A program made the position numbers and the translations under genes. From Enterococcus hirae ATCC 9790 (GTDB lineage: Bacteria > Bacillota > Bacilli > Lactobacillales > Enterococcaceae), in NCBI RefSeq assembly GCF_000271405.2, contig NC_015845.1:1-28699 (forward strand): a stretch of DNA of 28,699 bases. Reading direction: 5' to 3'. Shown piece by piece: positions 11,705 to 27,880 of the stretch (positions within the stretch are counted from its first letter, which is position 1; every line of letters starts with the position of its first letter). The notes below the pieces were generated by a model. That model had not been told where the DNA came from. It made no database searches and saw only the letters and a list, made by a program, of their open reading frames with translations.

Positions 11705-12226
11705 ATGAAAAAAATGATTATAGTCTTAGTTTTGCTTAGTATTGGTGGTTTGCTAGGCGCTCAGTATGGCACAGAAAAAAATAGAAAGATAGAAGAAGAT
11801 TATCAGCAAAATATTTCCGAGGTCAGTAAAGAAAGAGATAAATATAAGTTAGCTTTGGATAGTATGGATCAAGAAGAAGAAAACAATAGCACCAATGAGA
11901 ACGTGAATAAAGAAAGAGAAAATAATTTATCTGATTTTACAGATAAGTTGTTAAATTTTGATTCAATTGATGATCGGAATAAGGCAATTAGAGATTATTT
12001 GACGACTAATTGTATCAAAGAACAAGGAATTGATGTAGAGATCAATGCAGATTTTGATAGTACTGGCACAATTAATGGTATTTATCAAGATACAGCTGAT
12101 TTGGAACATTATATCATTCTTGGAAAAGATAATAGTCGAGGTGCAGAACATGATGTTTTGATCGATGTTGTATTTGAAAATAACAAGATTGGGAATTTTA
12201 AAATCCAATATATGGAAATGAGATAA
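11705..12226 (+). CDS. Membrane-anchored coiled-coil protein of the transfer operon
   Basis: A 173-residue protein with an N-terminal membrane helix (about residues 4-20), a charged coiled-coil-like stretch (22-85) and a C-terminal domain of about 80 residues with alternating beta-like sequence. ATG 11705 was chosen because AAGGTG lies just upstream, although the frame also extends to a TTG at 11684. No family was recognised. The place after the hydrolase corresponds to that of YddI in ICEBs1, which is only a positional parallel. Confidence 0.65.
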   Translation: MKKMIIVLVLLSIGGLLGAQYGTEKNRKIEEDYQQNISEVSKERDKYKLALDSMDQEEENNSTNENVNKERENNLSDFTDKLLNFDSIDDRNKAIRDYLTTNCIKEQGIDVEINADFDSTGTINGIYQDTADLEHYIILGKDNSRGAEHDVLIDVVFENNKIGNFKIQYMEMR

Positions 12227-15009: not shown

Positions 15010-15098
15010 ACACATTTACACAAGTACACAATTGTAAATGTGTAAATATGATAAAAGATAAATATGATAATTTATCTTTTATCATATTTATCTTTTTT
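15010..15098. repeat. Inverted repeats downstream of the partition operon
   Basis: Two nested features lie here. ACACATTTACA pairs with TGTAAATGTGT across 15010-15044. Next to it, an AT-rich palindrome built on GATAAATATGATAA and TTATCATATTTATC occupies about 15053-15098. The second may end transcription of both facing operons and carries one copy of the partition-type element (15060-15083). Confidence 0.65.
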
Positions 15099-15402
15099 AT
15101 AAATTTGAGAGAGTTTTAAAAGCTCTTTTTTTATCAGCGTCTAAAGAAGTTTCTACATAGTGATCGATCATTGATTCAATCATTTCGTAAGAAAATTTAT
15201 TGTCAGTGAGCTTCATTAAAATATCAATTTGATCTTTTGTTTGCCTAGATACTTTAATATTAGCGTCTTGATTTTTTACAACAGGATTTTTAGCTTTTCT
15301 CGTTTGTTTTTTTACAGCTTGTACACTATCAGCAGATTGATTTGGTGTAATTTTCGTATTTTTAATTAAACCAGTAGGTCTTTTTTTATTAGTATCAGTC
15401 AT
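15097..15402 (-). CDS. Partition partner protein, ribbon-helix-helix type (PrgO-like)
   Basis: A 101-residue basic protein encoded directly after parA on the minus strand, three bases apart. The N-terminal 45 residues are disordered and Lys/Gln-rich. The last 55 contain IKVSRQTKDQIDILMKL and an SYEMIESMIDHYV helix, as in RHH DNA-binding domains. Small RHH proteins with this layout (PrgO in pCF10-type plasmids) bind centromere repeats and activate ParA. The AT-rich repeats on both sides of the operon are the likely sites. Confidence 0.78.
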   Translation of the reverse strand: MTDTNKKRPTGLIKNTKITPNQSADSVQAVKKQTRKAKNPVVKNQDANIKVSRQTKDQIDILMKLTDNKFSYEMIESMIDHYVETSLDADKKRAFKTLSNL

Positions 15403-15405
15403 ATC

Positions 15406-16248
15406 TTATTTTTCTCCTTCAAAATAATTTATACGATCTAATAATTCGTCTGAAACAATATTATATAAATCTATTACTTTTTTATCATGTCGATCATATT
15501 CAGTAATTCCAGTATTGTCAAAACGTTTTAGACGTGCCATATTTGGTATCTTTGTATTGAAGATATTTTCTTCTCCAAAAACTTGAGTAGCATTTTCTAA
15601 TACAAAGTTATCAAGGCTTGCATTTCCGTCCATGAGAACTGGTAAAACTCCGACTATTTCAAAGTTTCCGTTATACTCGTTTGCTAGTTTTTGTAGATCA
15701 TTTAAATACTCAATTGCACCGTCTAGTGATAACTCTTGTGTTTGCAATACAATTAAAACGTAATCTGAAGCTAATACAGCACTATCTGTTATATATGATT
15801 TTGTAGGTGGAACGTCTATGAAAATATAATCATATTTTGCTTTTAGTGGTGTAAGAAGTTGTTTAAAATGATTAATTTTAGTAGTAGTGATCTTATTAAA
15901 ACTAGGATCAGTTTCTTCTACTAGTCCATAAGTTAAATCTAAGAATGTACTATAATTAGCAAAATCAATATAACTAGGTAACAAAGAAAGGTTAGGCATA
16001 ATCTCTGTTTCTATATCAGATATGTCACCTTCTTTGATTGCTGTCATTAAAGTTTTATCAAAGCTAAAAACTTCGTCACTATGAAGCTTTTTAGTTCTTA
16101 ATAGAACAGTTGTAGCATTTGCTTGAGGGTCTAAATCTACGACTAAAGTTTTGTATCCTTTTTTAGCTAGTTCGTAAGCATTTAAAATATTGTTTTTTGT
16201 TTTCCCTACGCCACCTTTGTAGTTACCTACTGTAAGTGTAATTGCCAT
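15406..16248 (-). CDS. ParA-family partition ATPase (PrgP-like)
   Basis: This 280-residue ATPase drives plasmid partition on the nucleoid. The deviant Walker A motif is KGGVGKT at residues 10-16, VVDLDPQANAT lies at about 35-46, and YIFIDVPP is the Walker A'/B strand near residue 140. There is no N-terminal DNA-binding extension, so it is of the small type Ib-like kind. The start ATG (complement of 16246-16248) has AGGAGGT upstream. It is the first gene of the operon, facing the repeat cluster at 16280-16505, and is probably repressed by its partner bound there. Confidence 0.9.
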   Translation of the reverse strand: MAITLTVGNYKGGVGKTKNNILNAYELAKKGYKTLVVDLDPQANATTVLLRTKKLHSDEVFSFDKTLMTAIKEGDISDIETEIMPNLSLLPSYIDFANYSTFLDLTYGLVEETDPSFNKITTTKINHFKQLLTPLKAKYDYIFIDVPPTKSYITDSAVLASDYVLIVLQTQELSLDGAIEYLNDLQKLANEYNGNFEIVGVLPVLMDGNASLDNFVLENATQVFGEENIFNTKIPNMARLKRFDNTGITEYDRHDKKVIDLYNIVSDELLDRINYFEGEK

Positions 16249-16274
16249 TAGTAGTTACCTCCTAAAAATTTATC

Positions 16275-16510
16275 TATAGCTATATTATCATATTATCATA
16301 TTTAAATAAATAGCTATAGATAAATATGATAATAGATAAATATGATAATTTATCTATTATCATTATCTATAACGGTTGTTAAACATTGATACATTAACAT
16401 TTTGTAGCTTAAATAAAAAAAGATAAATATGATAATAGATAAATAGATAAAAAGATAAATATGATAATAGATAAATAGATAAAAAGATAAATATGATAAT
16501 ATGATAATCG
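16275..16510. repeat. AT-rich iterated repeats upstream of parA (centromere/operator candidate)
   Basis: Units built on GATAAATATGATAAT recur in direct and inverted order. A palindrome around TATAGCTATA lies at about 16275-16335. Two full copies and one partial copy of a 32-base direct repeat (AAAAAGATAAATATGATAAT plus AGATAAATAGAT) lie at about 16420-16505. Related single copies lie at 12975-12998 and 15060-15083. This pattern fits a parS-type centromere and autoregulatory operator; it could also include the vegetative origin. Confidence 0.75.
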
Positions 16511-16523
16511 TAAAAAAAAGAGG

Positions 16524-16552
16524 TTGCGCAGAAAATTTTTTTACGTTATGAT
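16524..16552 (+). promoter_or_regulatory. Promoter of the large structured RNA
   Basis: TTGCGC at 16524-16529, a 17-base spacer and TATGAT at 16547-16552. The predicted transcript start is near 16559, at the edge of the folded region. Confidence 0.65.
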
Positions 16553-16558
16553 TTTTTT

Positions 16559-17219
16559 GTAAAATTAAATAAAAAAACTGCCCACGAACTGCAATTCGTG
16601 ACCAGCCAAAAACGAGTTGAAAAACTCGAAACATATACGTTGGCTCTATTATAGCATATTTATTGCTATAATGGTAGTTTTTTAAGACAAGAGAGGACAA
16701 ACTCTTGCTAGTTTTTACTAGAAATAAAGGGACAGGTCATATGCCAGCCGATTCTATAAAATGGCGTTGCGGACATAAGCAAAGGTTACTCTCATGACTT
16801 TGTGTCCTAAGGGTGGTGGCGACCGTTAACGGCTAGGGTGGCAAACAGGATTCCGAAAGAATCGGTAATTGTCATTCAATGCTGCGATTGGGCTGTTTGA
16901 TCGTAGGGAATGACAATGTGTGAAAGCACCAACTCATGAGAGATGTTACTAGTGGCTCCAGGGCGTCGGCATGACGTTAGACTTTTAGCAGGTTGTACTC
17001 TGATCGATGTTTCATATTTTTTGAAATGTCCTTCTTAGGGTACAACTATGCCCAACACCAAAACGCACAACAATCAGTTAGAATTACCGGGTGCAGAATT
17101 GCAACTGTTTTTCTAATTTTTTTAGTTAATTGAGGAACTAACGGGGGATTCAATAATAGTTTAAGACTATTTATGCAACAAGTAGTAGAATCACTAGTGT
17201 TAAGCCTTTGGCTTTTTTA
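16559..17219 (+). ncRNA. Large, densely structured non-coding RNA candidate (about 660 nt)
   Basis: No plausible gene is present and GC is higher than in the flanks. The 5' 112 bases form a four-way junction: 16572-16579/16676-16683 closes arms 16583-16588/16595-16600, 16604-16609/16640-16645 (enclosing 16613-16618/16623-16628 with a GAAA loop) and 16648-16656/16664-16672. Downstream are stems 16771-16775/16803-16807 with 16780-16784/16798-16802, 16868-16877/16908-16917 (10 bp) and 16992-16998/17040-17046. The loop CTCTCATGA (16789-16797) is complementary to TCATGAGAG (16934-16942), a likely pseudoknot. A terminator ends it. The style recalls giant ornate RNAs (ROOL, GOLLD) of Lactobacillales mobile elements, but kinship is unproven. 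Confidence 0.7.
17202..17219 (+). terminator. Intrinsic terminator of the structured RNA
   Basis: AAGCC TTT GGCTT followed by TTTTAC forms a short hairpin with a U tract, between the folded region and the next ribosome site. Confidence 0.65.
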
Positions 17220-17252
17220 CTTTTCGGAACAAATGATAATGGAGGGTTTAGT

Positions 17253-17894
17253 TTGAATGATAATTTACAGTTAATGATGGATCAAATTGATCGAGTTATT
17301 TCAATGTATCAATGGACTGTGGGTATATTTATATCGATAATATTGGGATCACTTGGTTTATTTGGTCTTATACAGTTTAAGTTAAAAAAATCTCAAGAGG
17401 AAAATATAAAAAAAGAAATTTTTACTCGTTTTAATGAAGTTACAGCTGAGTCATTAGAACCTTTGATATTAGCTTCTATTGATCAGATATATTGGTCAAG
17501 TACAACAGAATATCAAAGAAATGCCGATCTTTTTTTTAGATATCTTGAATTAAGTAAAAAATATAATTTTTCTGAGGATGTAAAAAAATATATATATTGG
17601 TTTAAGTTTTCCGTTCCTAGAGCTTTTTTTGTTACATTTGAGAGAATCTTTGACTTACCTTTGTCAGATGGGTATGGGGCGAGTAATGAGGCTAATGAAC
17701 TTAGTAATTTGTTTAAGGAAAATGGCGAATTTACCAAATTACCTGACCCGGAAGAAGTTTCTATTTTGGTAAAAGAGATTAGCCGTCTTAGAGAAGAAGC
17801 TAATCTGGATAATTATGGTGATTTTGAGAGAGTATTAAAAGATTATAGAGTGTTTTATGATGATGTTAATAATTTAAATTTGGATATATTATAA
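17253..17894 (+). CDS. Hypothetical single-pass membrane protein
   Basis: A 213-residue protein with a short N terminus, one membrane helix (about residues 20-43, WTVGIFISIILGSLGLFGLI), then a Lys/Glu-rich linker and a mostly helical soluble domain. Start TTG 17253 was chosen because GGAGGG lies at 17241-17246; an upstream in-frame TTG at 17208 falls in the terminator hairpin. No family was recognised. It lies alone between the structured RNA and the type II toxin-antitoxin pair and may be expressed by readthrough or from an unseen promoter. Confidence 0.65.
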   Translation: MNDNLQLMMDQIDRVISMYQWTVGIFISIILGSLGLFGLIQFKLKKSQEENIKKEIFTRFNEVTAESLEPLILASIDQIYWSSTTEYQRNADLFFRYLELSKKYNFSEDVKKYIYWFKFSVPRAFFVTFERIFDLPLSDGYGASNEANELSNLFKENGEFTKLPDPEEVSILVKEISRLREEANLDNYGDFERVLKDYRVFYDDVNNLNLDIL

Positions 17895-18083
17895 CAATTT
17901 GATTTTTTCTTAGTATAGTTTTTTCACAAACTTTTAAAGGTGAAAAACGAGTGATTTGGTTGTATTTTTAACTATACCAATTTCAATTCACAAAGTTAAG
18001 TTATAAATCGTTTGGTAATACTGATACTTGGTATATTCGAGATTATGTAAACTAACTAAATAAATAACATTTCTATATGTTCT
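17895..18083. other. Intergenic region with inverted repeats
   Basis: No gene is seen. GTATAGTT (17913-17920) pairs with AACTATAC (17970-17977), and TATACCAA (about 17973) has its inverse TTGGTATA near 18028. The stretch is AT-rich, and its role is unknown. Confidence 0.4.
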
Positions 18084-18164: not shown

Positions 18165-18494
18165 ATGATTACAAAAACAAGAAAACAAGGTAATTCTATT
18201 ATGTTGACAGTTCCTAAAGACTTTAATGTTCCGAATGGAGTAGAAGTTGAGGCAAAACTTGTAGAAAATGGCATTCTTTATGAATTTGTTGAACCACAAA
18301 AGGAATTCTTTGATTTTAGTGAAGATATTTTGTCTGATATAATCGCTGAAGGCTACGATAAAGATAAAATCCTTGTAGAGTTTAAGAATAGAAAAAACAA
18401 TTTGGTCTCTTCTTTTAGAAATATTGCTACAGATACACTTACTAATTCTAATGCTATGACTAAAGAGGAGCTGGCAAAAGAAATTGGGTTATGA
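18165..18494 (+). CDS. AbrB/MazE-like antitoxin
   Basis: A 109-residue protein whose first 45 residues form a SpoVT/AbrB swapped-hairpin DNA-binding domain: KTRKQGNSIMLTVPKDFNVPNGVEVEAKL. The longer C-terminal part (about 50-109) is charged and should neutralise the toxin encoded next. GAGG precedes the ATG. An AbrB-fold antitoxin with a RelE-fold toxin is a known hybrid pairing. It overlaps the toxin frame by 11 bases. Confidence 0.85.
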   Translation: MITKTRKQGNSIMLTVPKDFNVPNGVEVEAKLVENGILYEFVEPQKEFFDFSEDILSDIIAEGYDKDKILVEFKNRKNNLVSSFRNIATDTLTNSNAMTKEELAKEIGL

Positions 18495-18771
18495 GATCGT
18501 TCCTTCAAAACATGTAATTAAGTATCTAAAAAAGATAAAAGAAAAACCTTTAAAAGAGAAATTTTTAAATATGATTTATGATGAGATTGCAGTTGATCCA
18601 TATTCAGGAAGTCAAAAGACTGGGGATTTATCAGGTATTTGGTCTAAGGGATTTAACTACGCAGGAACTACTTATAGAATTGCTTATGAAATTGAAGAAA
18701 ATATGGTTATTCCTGTATTGTTATGTGGAACACATGAAAATTTCTATGAGCAGTTAAAGAATATCAACTGA
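18484..18771 (+). CDS. RelE/ParE-family toxin
   Basis: A 95-residue protein of the RelE/ParE fold: VPSKHVIKYLKKIKEKPLKEKF helices, then YAGTTYRIAYEIEENMVIPVLLCGTHENFYEQL, the usual beta-strand core with Arg and a His/Phe-Tyr tail. RelE members cut mRNA at the ribosome and ParE members poison gyrase; the sequence alone does not settle which. Start TTG 18484 lies inside the antitoxin gene with GAGGAG about 12 bases upstream, and the nearby ATG 18491 is out of frame. Low-efficiency initiation would favour antitoxin excess. Confidence 0.85.
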   Translation: MGYEIVPSKHVIKYLKKIKEKPLKEKFLNMIYDEIAVDPYSGSQKTGDLSGIWSKGFNYAGTTYRIAYEIEENMVIPVLLCGTHENFYEQLKNIN

Positions 18772-18994: not shown

Positions 18995-19050
18995 GTTTAG
19001 TAAATTAGTATCTCGTGAAAGATAGCAAGGTTCATGTCGTTTGAATATGG

Positions 19051-19270
19051 TATAATCGTGAGGTAGAGAAGTGAAAAGATAGTGGCTAGTCTCTTGAAAA
19101 AGGGGTGATGCCTATGGTTCATAGCTTTATCCCTAGAAGGGAGTAGGCAAGTGTCAACTTTTGAAGCAATTCAACTGATGATCGCTTTTGCGACGTTAGT
19201 TTTGCTGATTATTGACCATAAAGACCAAAAAAAATAACCATCTAACACTTTGACCGGTTATAGATGGTTA
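19051..19270 (+). ncRNA. Toxin mRNA (RNA I) of par-type type I toxin-antitoxin module, copy 2
   Basis: TATAAT at 19051-19056 gives a start near 19063. The 5' part folds: GCCTA (19110-19114) with TAGGC (19144-19148) closes a CTATG/CATAG hairpin (19112-19124) and CCCT AGA AGGG (19131-19141), which hides part of the toxin ribosome site. A 10-codon leader frame (ATG 19114, stop 19144-19146) ends four bases before the toxin start. The shared hairpin AACCATCTA/TAGATGGTT (19236-19269) ends the unit. The layout parallels the par locus of pAD1. Confidence 0.65.
19151..19237 (+). CDS. Small hydrophobic type I toxin (holin-like/Fst-type)
   Basis: A 28-residue peptide from a GTG start with AAGGGAG seven bases upstream: a short STFEAIQLM head, a membrane helix (IAFATLVLLII) and the charged tail DHKDQKK. 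This head-helix-tail plan is that of putative holin-like toxins common in Enterococcus and Lactobacillus. Expression would depolarise the membrane or disturb the envelope, and the convergent RNA at 19236-19356 should block translation. Confidence 0.8.
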   Translation: MSTFEAIQLMIAFATLVLLIIDHKDQKK

Positions 19271-19356
19271 AATCCGTATTATAACAGTCACCGTCTTTTT
19301 AACGGTTCTACATAGGGGCTATGTTGACGCATAGCTCCTTTTTCATTATCATTATA
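19236..19356 (-). ncRNA. Antisense antitoxin RNA (RNA II), copy 2
   Basis: The minus-strand TATAAT is at 19351-19356. The RNA starts near 19344 and shares direct-repeat blocks with RNA I (GAAAAAGG, CATAGC, CCTA..TAGAA). It ends at the AACCATCTA/TAGATGGTT hairpin followed by T8 on this strand. As in par, the two convergent RNAs pair through direct repeats and the common terminator. Confidence 0.7.
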
Positions 19357-26596: not shown

Positions 26597-27880
26597 TTGG
26601 TGGTTCTAAAGATTGATATATCAGCTTTTTCATTGGTTGCACACTCTCAAAAAAAAATCGCGATTTTGACAACTAAATTAAGTGGGGGAGAAACGATTGA
26701 TAATTTAGTATTAAATGACTTAGGAAGAAGTATAAAATCTTCAAGAATAAGATTTCGTATGACGCAAACGGAGTTTGCTAGGGAAATTGGTGTGAGTCGC
26801 CAGATTATCAGTGAGTTAGAGCGTAATATAGTAAGGGTTTCTGATGAAACGTTGAATAAAATACTTGATTATATTGCCATGCAGGATCGACATGATCCAT
26901 TAGAATGTATTATTGATTATCTGAGGGTTACATTTCCTGTAAATGATGTTGCTGGCATATTTAGAGACGTTTTAAAGATAGATAAAGCTTATTTTGCCGA
27001 AGTAGATTCTCATATGTACGGTTATATAGGCGGTTATCAGCTAGATTATATTCAAGTGTTATATTCAAAGAAAAATGATGAACGTGGTGTATTAATTCAA
27101 TTATCAGGGCAAGGTTGTCGTCAATTTGAAGCCTTTCTTGAAGCGCAAGGTCGAACATGGTTCGACTTTTTTTATTGCTGTTTTGACTACAACTGCCGAG
27201 TAACAAGGCTTGATTTAGCGATTAATGATTACAAAGAATATTTAAGCATACCGACACTTTTAAATAAGGTCTTTCGACAGGAATTAATTTCACGATTCCG
27301 TAAATTTGATTTTAATGGTTCTGGCAGTATTTCTGAAAAGAAACAGGAAGGTACAAGTATCTATTTTGGATCTAAAAAAAGTGAGTTTTATATTACTTTT
27401 TATCAAAAAAATTACGAGCAAGCGAGAAAGCTAGGGATTCCTGTTGAAGAAGTTCCGATAAAAAATCGTTATGAAATGCGGTTTAAGAATGAACGTGCAA
27501 TGTTAGTGATAAAAGAATTCATGAAATCGGGTGATTTAGCCAGCATTATTCTAGGAATAATGAAGGATTATTTACTGTTTACTGACCGAAGGGTAGGCGT
27601 TAGTCGGAAGTATTGGAATGTGAATCGAAAATGGCAGTATTTCTTAGGTGACGCTGAAAAAATGCGTTTAGCTGTCGAACCGAATGAACAGCTTTATGAA
27701 CGATCAAAAAATTGGTTTAAGAGGACGGCTGCAGCTACTGCAAAAGTGATACAAGAAATTGATGAAATCAAAGGCACACAAGAATTTCAAGAAATTATTG
27801 ATGAAATTGAATTGAGTGAGAAGCACCAGCACGTTATCGAAGTACAAACAACAAATATTAAAGATATGATTTGTGCGTAA
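26597..27880 (+). CDS. Rep_trans-family relaxase with N-terminal HTH (Tn916 Orf20/NicK-like)
   Basis: This enzyme nicks oriT, covalently holds the 5' end and starts rolling-circle transfer. An XRE-type HTH spans about residues 40-95 (IKSSRIRFRMTQTEFAREIGVSRQIISELER). The Rep_trans domain follows at about 105-330 (YLRVTFPVND, TRLDLAINDYKEY, YEMRFKNERA). As framed from TTG 26597 it has 427 residues with no close ribosome site. GGGGGAG at 26684-26690 precedes an in-frame ATT at 26696, just before the conserved domain. ICEBs1 NicK also supports autonomous replication, which matters because no other initiator was found here. Confidence 0.92.
   Translation: MVVLKIDISAFSLVAHSQKKIAILTTKLSGGETIDNLVLNDLGRSIKSSRIRFRMTQTEFAREIGVSRQIISELERNIVRVSDETLNKILDYIAMQDRHDPLECIIDYLRVTFPVNDVAGIFRDVLKIDKAYFAEVDSHMYGYIGGYQLDYIQVLYSKKNDERGVLIQLSGQGCRQFEAFLEAQGRTWFDFFYCCFDYNCRVTRLDLAINDYKEYLSIPTLLNKVFRQELISRFRKFDFNGSGSISEKKQEGTSIYFGSKKSEFYITFYQKNYEQARKLGIPVEEVPIKNRYEMRFKNERAMLVIKEFMKSGDLASIILGIMKDYLLFTDRRVGVSRKYWNVNRKWQYFLGDAEKMRLAVEPNEQLYERSKNWFKRTAAATAKVIQEIDEIKGTQEFQEIIDEIELSEKHQHVIEVQTTNIKDMICA

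Follow-up and report, generated by a model that had tools for sequence, protein, structure and literature searches.

Plasmid replication started by RNA is already known from ColE1 (class B), in which a long folded RNA (RNA II) serves in place of a Rep protein and is checked by an antisense RNA (RNA I) to its 5' part. An antisense RNA also acts in pT181 and pIP501, where it frees a terminator in the leader. In the pheromone plasmids (pAD1 type), repA occupies the spot where the RNA described below is found. Theta replicons that lack a Rep are already known from Gram-positive bacteria in pLS20 and pTE15. pLS20, the type of theta class E, is reported to encode no Rep and to give minireplicons that work in polA5 and recA4 strains (PMC4490491); a second article puts its replicon at ~1.1 kb and finds no replication gene of the typical sort in it (PMC9743546). 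That second article also describes pTE15 of L. reuteri as having a 1,311-bp Rep-less minireplicon beside ParA-like RepB and RepC (PMC9743546). The RNA family that may lie behind such replicons appears to be undescribed, since it has no matching Rfam model and no description was found in the titles and abstract openings of the papers searched.

The window analyzed here, i.e., the whole stretch of 28,699 bases, is an entire contig, the second of two in a 2.86 Mb genome, and is probably a complete enterococcal plasmid. Between a divergent parA and an uncharacterised gene it carries a covarying, pseudoknotted RNA of ~550 nt. We consider it reasonably likely that this RNA is the replication initiator of plasmids that lack a Rep, and that its synthesis is, by prediction, throttled by a short antisense RNA.

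Surroundings of the RNA in the window

Judged by similarity of the RNA (BLASTN, plasmid records), plasmids of Enterococcus mundtii are the closest relatives of the window. The features discussed in the text are collected in Table 1. The RNA site is flanked by the minus-strand parA with its A+T-rich repeats and by the uncharacterised gene at 17208-17894; from its sequence, the repeat block is probably the partition site. GC content, taken in windows, is 0.40-0.50 over 16700-17049 and 0.13-0.39 across the remainder of 15900-17900. The plasmid also encodes a Y-family polymerase and a Tn916-like transfer set of TcpC, TcpE, a VirB4-like ATPase, FtsK, and the MobT-like protein, the last being the sole Rep-like protein found when 30 of the 47 listed ORFs were scanned. 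Overall, the surroundings of the RNA point to plasmid replication.

Two other RNA matches were noted downstream: the Listeria sRNA rli28 (RF01492, 125 bits) at 19041-19221 on the plus strand, here on an enterococcal plasmid, and the antitoxin RNA RatA (RF01776, 59 bits) at 19266-19354 on the minus strand, where a type I toxin-antitoxin pair is possible. An AbrB-like/ParE-like toxin-antitoxin pair at 18165-18771 is closely similar to one on pWNCR9, another plasmid carrying the RNA (L012, 7889-8495).

Table 1. Features of the RNA locus and of related genes in the window (positions are those of the window).
Feature	Position	Strand	Basis
DUF5388-like small protein, presumed ParA partner	15097..15402	-	PF17363 22 bits, under cut-off 26.1
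ParA-type ATPase, PrgP-like, divergent from RNA	15406..16248	-	Pfam AAA_31 1.4e-36; NCBIfam PrgP 174 bits, cut-off 400 not reached
A+T-rich repeat block (AGATAAATATGATAA units) between parA and RNA	16260..16510		sequence
-10-like box TAAAAT, no clear -35	16560..16565	+	sequence; ~TANAAT in relatives by eye
5' A-tract + CTGCC, predicted antiterminator; 16572-16582 pairs with 16673-16683	16571..16582	+	minimum-energy fold
Giant RNA, ends approximate	16572..17125	+	start from -10-like box, end from similarity limit in relatives
Leader hairpin 1, CACGAA-CTGCAA-TTCGTG, loop variable	16583..16600	+	terminator scan, leader comparison
Attenuator: 11-pair stem 16646-16656/16664-16674, then T run 16678-16683	16646..16683	+	terminator-like site in scan
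Extended -10 TGCTATAAT, predicted antisense RNA promoter	16648..16656	-	TGNTATAAT exact in 25/34 leaders
Helix 1, 16688-16693/16702-16707, loop AGGACAAA	16688..16707	+	both-side changes in 5/6 pairs, 97.2% cells paired
Helix 3, 16741-16746/16762-16767	16741..16767	+	both-side changes in 5/6 pairs, 92.1% cells paired
Hairpin 16780-16784/16798-16802, pseudoknot 5' half in loop	16780..16802	+	65.0% cells paired in alignment
Pseudoknot 5' half (CTCTCATGA)	16789..16797	+	24/24 relatives, 14 distinct helices
Most conserved core, TAAGGGTGGTGGCGACCGTTAACGG..GGGT; motif common to Lactobacillaceae and pLS20	16808..16839	+	alignment, patterns, model
Long-range helix closing core, 16836-16839 (GGGT)/17050-17053 (GCCC)	16836..17053	+	97.9% cells paired, one-side changes only
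Pseudoknot 3' half (TCATGAGAG)	16934..16942	+	same test as 5' half
3' stem GTTGTACTCTGA / TTAGGGTACAAC, T-rich hairpin between	16992..17046	+	counted pairs 16995-17003/17035-17043
MobT-like protein with Rep_trans domain	26597..27880	+	Rep_trans 4.3e-56; NCBIfam MobT 336 bits, cut-off 600 not reached

Extent, fold, and covariation of the RNA

An earlier note on this DNA had claimed a giant structured RNA and no gene in 16559-17219, and stop-free stretches in the sense direction of the RNA (16572-17130) indeed reach no more than 50 codons. Its length of ~660 bases proved too generous: the relatives limit the RNA to about 550 nt rather than 661, the conserved core stopping near 17066 and similarity stopping at 17104-17127 in several relatives and at ~17235 in two. 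The same note had given the RNA its own promoter and terminator. The consensus promoter scan listed no sense promoter at the RNA start, but the TAAAAT box supports a start near 16572; a terminator-like site does exist, at 17202-17214, but it falls outside the conserved part.

The RNA folds at -186.9 kcal/mol, against an average of -158.0 when it is dinucleotide-shuffled 20 times (z -5.4). In the minimum-energy fold, the pairing of the 5' A-tract region with 16673-16683 encloses three hairpins, and the four-way junction recognised earlier thus holds as a prediction of that fold.

Alignments A1 and A2, the latter of 24 members, were drawn from 30 places having the 3' motif, six of which (L009, L014, L019, L025, L026, and L027) were omitted because they were partial or nearly identical to others; never entered were L001 (which is the window), L007 (a near-copy of L006), and L011 (a near-copy of L004). 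RNAalifold on A2 gave 42 pairs, with changes on both sides in 27. Covariation was assessed over the RNAalifold pairs plus three helices that include the pseudoknot, i.e., 59 pairs in 24 sequences. Over this set, 85.7% of cells were paired, compared with 70.4% in shuffled alignments and 37-42% when the pairs were slid; the covariation score was 0.503, compared with 0.232 in shuffles (none of 500 as high) and 0.10-0.19 when slid. The number of further pair types was no higher than in shuffles (90 vs 89.3, with 235 of 500 as high). The covarying pairs that the earlier note had proposed to look for in homologues are thus present, and no conserved protein frame, which it had named together with a lack of covariation as grounds for doubt, was found. 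Within the 42 pairs, G·U cells exceed A·C cells by 109 to 6, and it is for this reason that the RNA of the plus strand is taken to be under selection.

The nine-base match between the two halves of the pseudoknot, also claimed previously, is exact. Eight to ten contiguous pairs (G-U allowed) occur at the same two places in each of the 24 aligned relatives, and when the 19 distinct loop/partner sets were re-paired 5000 times, no re-pairing did as well. Note that A2 does not align the pseudoknot in register (46.6% of cells), and that the count of 24 of 24 was made without register. A nine-pair helix is also present in the Lactobacillaceae, where it is not significant alone because the sequences are near identical; in pLS20, the pseudoknot of the window was not found, nothing there being above chance.

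ROOL, GOLLD, and all other Rfam families searched gave no match at gathering level over 16559-17219, and the kinship with ROOL or GOLLD suggested earlier was not supported. Relaxing E to 10 over 16300-17300 gave only chance-level matches, and so did a search at E up to 1 in the relatives L041, L043, and L046, with two matches. ARRPOF likewise gave no match to the RNA, as far as the copy of Rfam used includes that family.

The leader

From its sequence, the leader looks like an antisense copy-control module. Hairpin 1, read on the minus strand, is terminator-like and followed by a T run, which is the predicted 3' end of an antisense RNA; together with the extended -10, this predicts an antisense RNA of ~70 nt running from ~16641 down to 16571. 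In the minimum-energy fold, the attenuator T-tract and the 5' A-tract are paired to each other, and a switch between the two structures is predicted. The exact extended -10 is absent from nine of the 34 leaders compared, which include near-identical ones; one of the nine, L018, misses it by a single base. By eye, another type of leader occurs in L012, L024, L028, and L031, and none was recognised in L006, L020, L021, and L022.

Hairpin 1 retains its stem while the loop varies among the otherwise close relatives L045-L050, L054, and L056 (by eye); loop changes of this kind are found in the specificity determinants of antisense systems. In addition, the 16-base center of hairpin 1 is exactly reverse-complemented between types: L004 and L005 relative to L003, L010, and L017, and the window, L002, and L009 relative to L018. 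The center (window 16583-16600) thus appears as if inverted among plasmids.

Distribution of the family

BLASTN searches covered 72,556 plasmid records. With the window RNA itself as query, the matches were 21 records from Enterococcus, about 72-96% identical, and chaining from these relatives added plasmids of Carnobacterium, Jeotgalibaca, Virgibacillus, Vagococcus, and Aerococcus. The 3' stem pattern was found in one stretch of IMG/VR and in 10 of the genome collection, three of these on one Desemzia contig. The core pattern, which the window's own variant does not match, gave 15 places in 11 of 395 Lactobacillales genomes, and the reversed pattern gave none. The core pattern revealed a Lactobacillaceae branch of seven loci, scored at 41-44 bits by model R1. 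With L046, one of these loci, as query, BLASTN matched 432 plasmid records, of which 304 are from Lactiplantibacillus; in 193 the match spans at least 80% of the query; a piece of L046 in which the expected 3' stem was not seen was not used. Going by similarity, hundreds of plasmid records from lactic acid bacteria and related groups contain a relative of the RNA. A phage origin was considered and rejected, there being no BLASTN match in 50,697 phage records and only the one IMG/VR contig by pattern.

Several individual records merit mention. On one large contig (G145:C1), three RNA matches at 784370, 857493, and 930616 (L044, L053, and L055) lie exactly 73,123 bases apart, a spacing that could come from a tandem array of an integrated plasmid or from an assembly artefact. 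In L056, a Lactobacillaceae plasmid, a small BRCT-domain gene (11942-12220) directly follows the RNA. A plasmid filed as Arthrobacter (L014, 4287-4393) has the 3' part of the RNA only (85% to L008) together with a full Rep_3 protein. Contigs titled Myroides (MAG; L025) and Proteus (L028) have RNA copies close to L006 and to that of Vagococcus salmoninarum (L024); binning or sample contamination is possible.

The pLS20 record contains a 1.4-kb stretch without an annotated gene beside the divergent alp7A, which we take to be the tested replicon. Model R1 matches pLS20 inside this stretch, at 19.2 bits (E 0.0017 in 66,774 bases, 0.011 in a 435-kb search), a short and weak match. In the 435-kb search, the next matches scored 13.9 (elsewhere in pLS20) and 12.5 bits; the two above pLS20, at L006 6387-6468 (23.3 bits) and L021 23167-23205 (21.3 bits), each share a record with the main copy and are probably fragments of a partial second copy. 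Six of seven pLS20-type loci score 16.5-20.3 bits with R1. The pLS20-type alignment covaries (changes on both sides in 31 of 183 pairs, seven sequences) and, like the family of the window RNA, ends in a hairpin with a T-rich loop and the 3' motif. The latter (TCAGC..TCTGNYAG) occurs once in pLS20 (L034) and in none of 200 shuffles, although the motif was chosen after looking. The pLS20 region and the window RNA family are probably distant kin on these sequence grounds, which fall short of proof. R1 finds nothing in pTE15, which was thus rejected as a member of the family.

Partition genes, initiators, and GC skew in the carriers

A ParA or AAA ATPase adjoins the RNA on the opposite strand in 14 of 21 annotated regions (L002, L003, L005-L008, L010, L011, L013, L015, L018, L019, L021, and L056). 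Among the others, only a DUF5388 gene is annotated in L016, no parA is in view in L012, L014, and L020, the regions of L009 and L017 are truncated by the end of the record, and L004 is unannotated.

The initiator families searched were Rep_3, RepA_N, Rep_trans, Rep_OBD, RepL, and Rep_1. In 20 records, Rep_3 was found in four, RepA_N in two, Rep_trans in seven others (one of which has partial matches only), and none of the three in seven. These last are plasmids of 9.6, 37.5, 47.8, 50.1, 52.7, and 103.7 kb and a 26.8-kb contig from a viral collection. Rep_OBD was found in none of the 20, and RepL in none of 20 in a slightly different set; Rep_1 also gave no match in 20 records, but neither did its controls, and this result carries no weight. 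Of the six carriers of Rep_3 or RepA_N, one has its Rep_3 cut to 140 aa, another has only a 219-aa frame, and L014 holds only the 3' part of the RNA. A complete Rep_trans protein is encoded in the window and in six relatives, and in principle their replication could depend on it.

A further set comprised 13 genomes or records; of these, Rep_3 was found in four and RepA_N in three, and neither in L056 or pLS20. Because some of these are draft genomes, a contig does not equate to a whole plasmid. The initiator shares the contig of the RNA in G078:C3 (Rep_3, at two places) and in G094:C279 (a 161-aa RepA_N frame); in G239, RepA_N and the RNA are on different contigs. PLSDB assigns replicon types to L003, L007, L008, L017, L020, and L056.

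The RNA-carrying plasmid pWNCR9 (9,614 bp) lacks an annotated parA. Of its 13 annotated proteins, 10 were scanned, and an initiator domain was found in none of them; going by their annotation, those left over are FlaR, an AbrB-type regulator, and a RelE/ParE-type toxin. A DUF536 gene on this plasmid resembles the kind found behind the repB gene in L014, and it is thus possible that pWNCR9 lost a Rep in the past.

Of 15 plasmids, 14, among them pLS20, have a positive total GC skew when read along the strand of the RNA. In seven of the 15 the detrended skew minimum falls no more than 10% of the plasmid length away from the RNA core, and in five no more than 2%, compared with random expectations of 3 and 0.6, but these plasmids are partly related and not independent; in addition, pP6-2 was used as 32,327 of its 32,902 bases, and one base occurs twice at the join of pLS20. 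In the window itself the minimum is 19% of the length (+0.19) away from the RNA, and GC skew was judged only partly useful as proof of an origin.

Discussion

With respect to mechanism and ALTERNATIVES, the evidence taken together suggests that the RNA initiates replication and that its own production is what the antisense attenuator controls. Transcription would begin at the A-tract near 16572. The 5' A-tract would pair with the attenuator U-tract, allowing RNA polymerase to read through and the whole RNA to be made; when the ~70-nt antisense RNA, starting near 16641 and ending at hairpin 1, covers the A-tract, the attenuator would be freed and transcription would stop. More copies of the plasmid would give more antisense RNA, and copy number would be held. 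The same copy-number logic operates in pT181 and pIP501. The completed RNA would fold into its pseudoknotted core, and RNA near the conserved 3' stem (UAGGGUACAACUAUGC) may stay hybridised to the template as an R-loop and open the DNA. The least certain step is the last, in which the R-loop would provide the host replisome with a primer or a loading site.

The strongest doubts about an initiator RNA come from those carriers that have a Rep, from the window's own Rep_trans protein, and from the thinness of the pLS20 match. Each of the other explanations considered is nonetheless weaker, in the order in which they are given here. If the RNA were an ornate cargo of the ROOL or GOLLD kind, perhaps cage-forming and with no part in replication, the plasmids would be copied by some other, unrecognised protein. 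A similar size, the Lactobacillales plasmid habitat, the rich pseudoknotted structure, and the presence of a Rep in some carriers all fit such a cargo, as does a 520-nt plasmid RNA of L. salivarius that is reported to be very abundant and deletable, its high level accompanying a high megaplasmid copy number (PMC5643018). We nevertheless judge this unlikely: the RNA has no Rfam match, is all but absent from the phage and IMG/VR collections, and is frequently tied to parA, and a cargo would have no need of an antisense/attenuator leader. That leader, together with the neighboring parA and repeat block, could also belong to a regulatory or incompatibility RNA of partition or copy control, the plasmid then replicating by its Rep_trans protein, complete in the window and six relatives, or by another initiator. 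This would, however, leave pWNCR9 with the RNA but with neither an annotated parA nor a Rep among the proteins scanned, and it does not account for the carriers in which Rep_trans, Rep_3, and RepA_N were not found. Furthermore, all antisense copy-control RNAs known to us are far smaller than the conserved pseudoknotted core of ~380 nt, and we regard a purely regulatory RNA as slightly less likely again than a cargo.

Finally, the structure might act as DNA, a folded single strand serving as an origin, primosome, or single-strand initiation site and never as a transcript. Hairpins are common in origins, and in the 3' part the sequence, and not just the structure, is conserved; but the excess of G·U over A·C cells is the mark of a plus-strand RNA fold, and the layout of attenuator and antisense RNA presupposes transcription. 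A DNA structure is accordingly very improbable.

A replication initiator RNA is therefore the reading that we prefer. Its extension, that the giant pseudoknotted RNA is an unrecognised kind of replicon spread across plasmids of the Lactobacillales and Bacillales, is more tentative, and we would put its chances a little short of even. In full, it would make the RNA an initiator and a plug-in replacement for repA beside parA, with copy number set by antisense attenuation and incompatibility changed by inversion of one leader hairpin, and it would unite the orphan Rep-less theta replicons, including pLS20, in a single RNA-driven class. Plasmids seemingly without a replication gene stay untyped or mistyped. 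If the RNA is the replicon, sequence typing gains a replicon class that covers many plasmids from bacteria of food, the gut, and the environment. How pLS20 can replicate with no Rep, a long-standing question, would become directly testable, and copying of the class that contains it, without a replication protein, would be explained. A large structured RNA would gain a function, while ROOL and GOLLD have structures but none, and small protein-free vectors for lactic acid bacteria would follow.

Comparison with known systems

The ornate RNAs ROOL, GOLLD, OLE, and ARRPOF resemble the window RNA in size and complexity and, for ROOL and GOLLD, in habitat; the window RNA differs from them in having no Rfam match, in being often linked to parA, and in its antisense-type leader. 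The layout of pTE15 is the same as that of the window RNA region. With respect to class E, the window has an RNA beside a divergent parA, without an ORF of note, and yet a Rep_trans protein is present. pLS20, which according to the review has no Rep, is like the window in its gene-free stretch beside a divergent partition gene; it shares with the family GAATGGYG-N4-CGRCC..TTAACGG and the 3' TCAGC..TCTG.TAG. It differs in that the match to the core is short, the window's pseudoknot was not found in it, and its partition gene encodes the actin-like Alp7A and not a ParA.

There is no known sequence relation between ColE1 and the window RNA. Because a polA5 strain is reported to support pLS20 (PMC4490491), unlike ColE1 with its extension by Pol I, such extension is not assumed here. 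An antisense RNA of the ColE1 type is predicted in the window family from the minus-strand extended -10 (25 of 34 leaders) and the minus-strand terminator-like site, but control in the window looks like attenuation, whereas that of ColE1 consists of blocked primer folding. The parts predicted in the leader are those of pT181 and pIP501; their controlled product, however, is the Rep mRNA, and that of the window would be a non-coding RNA.
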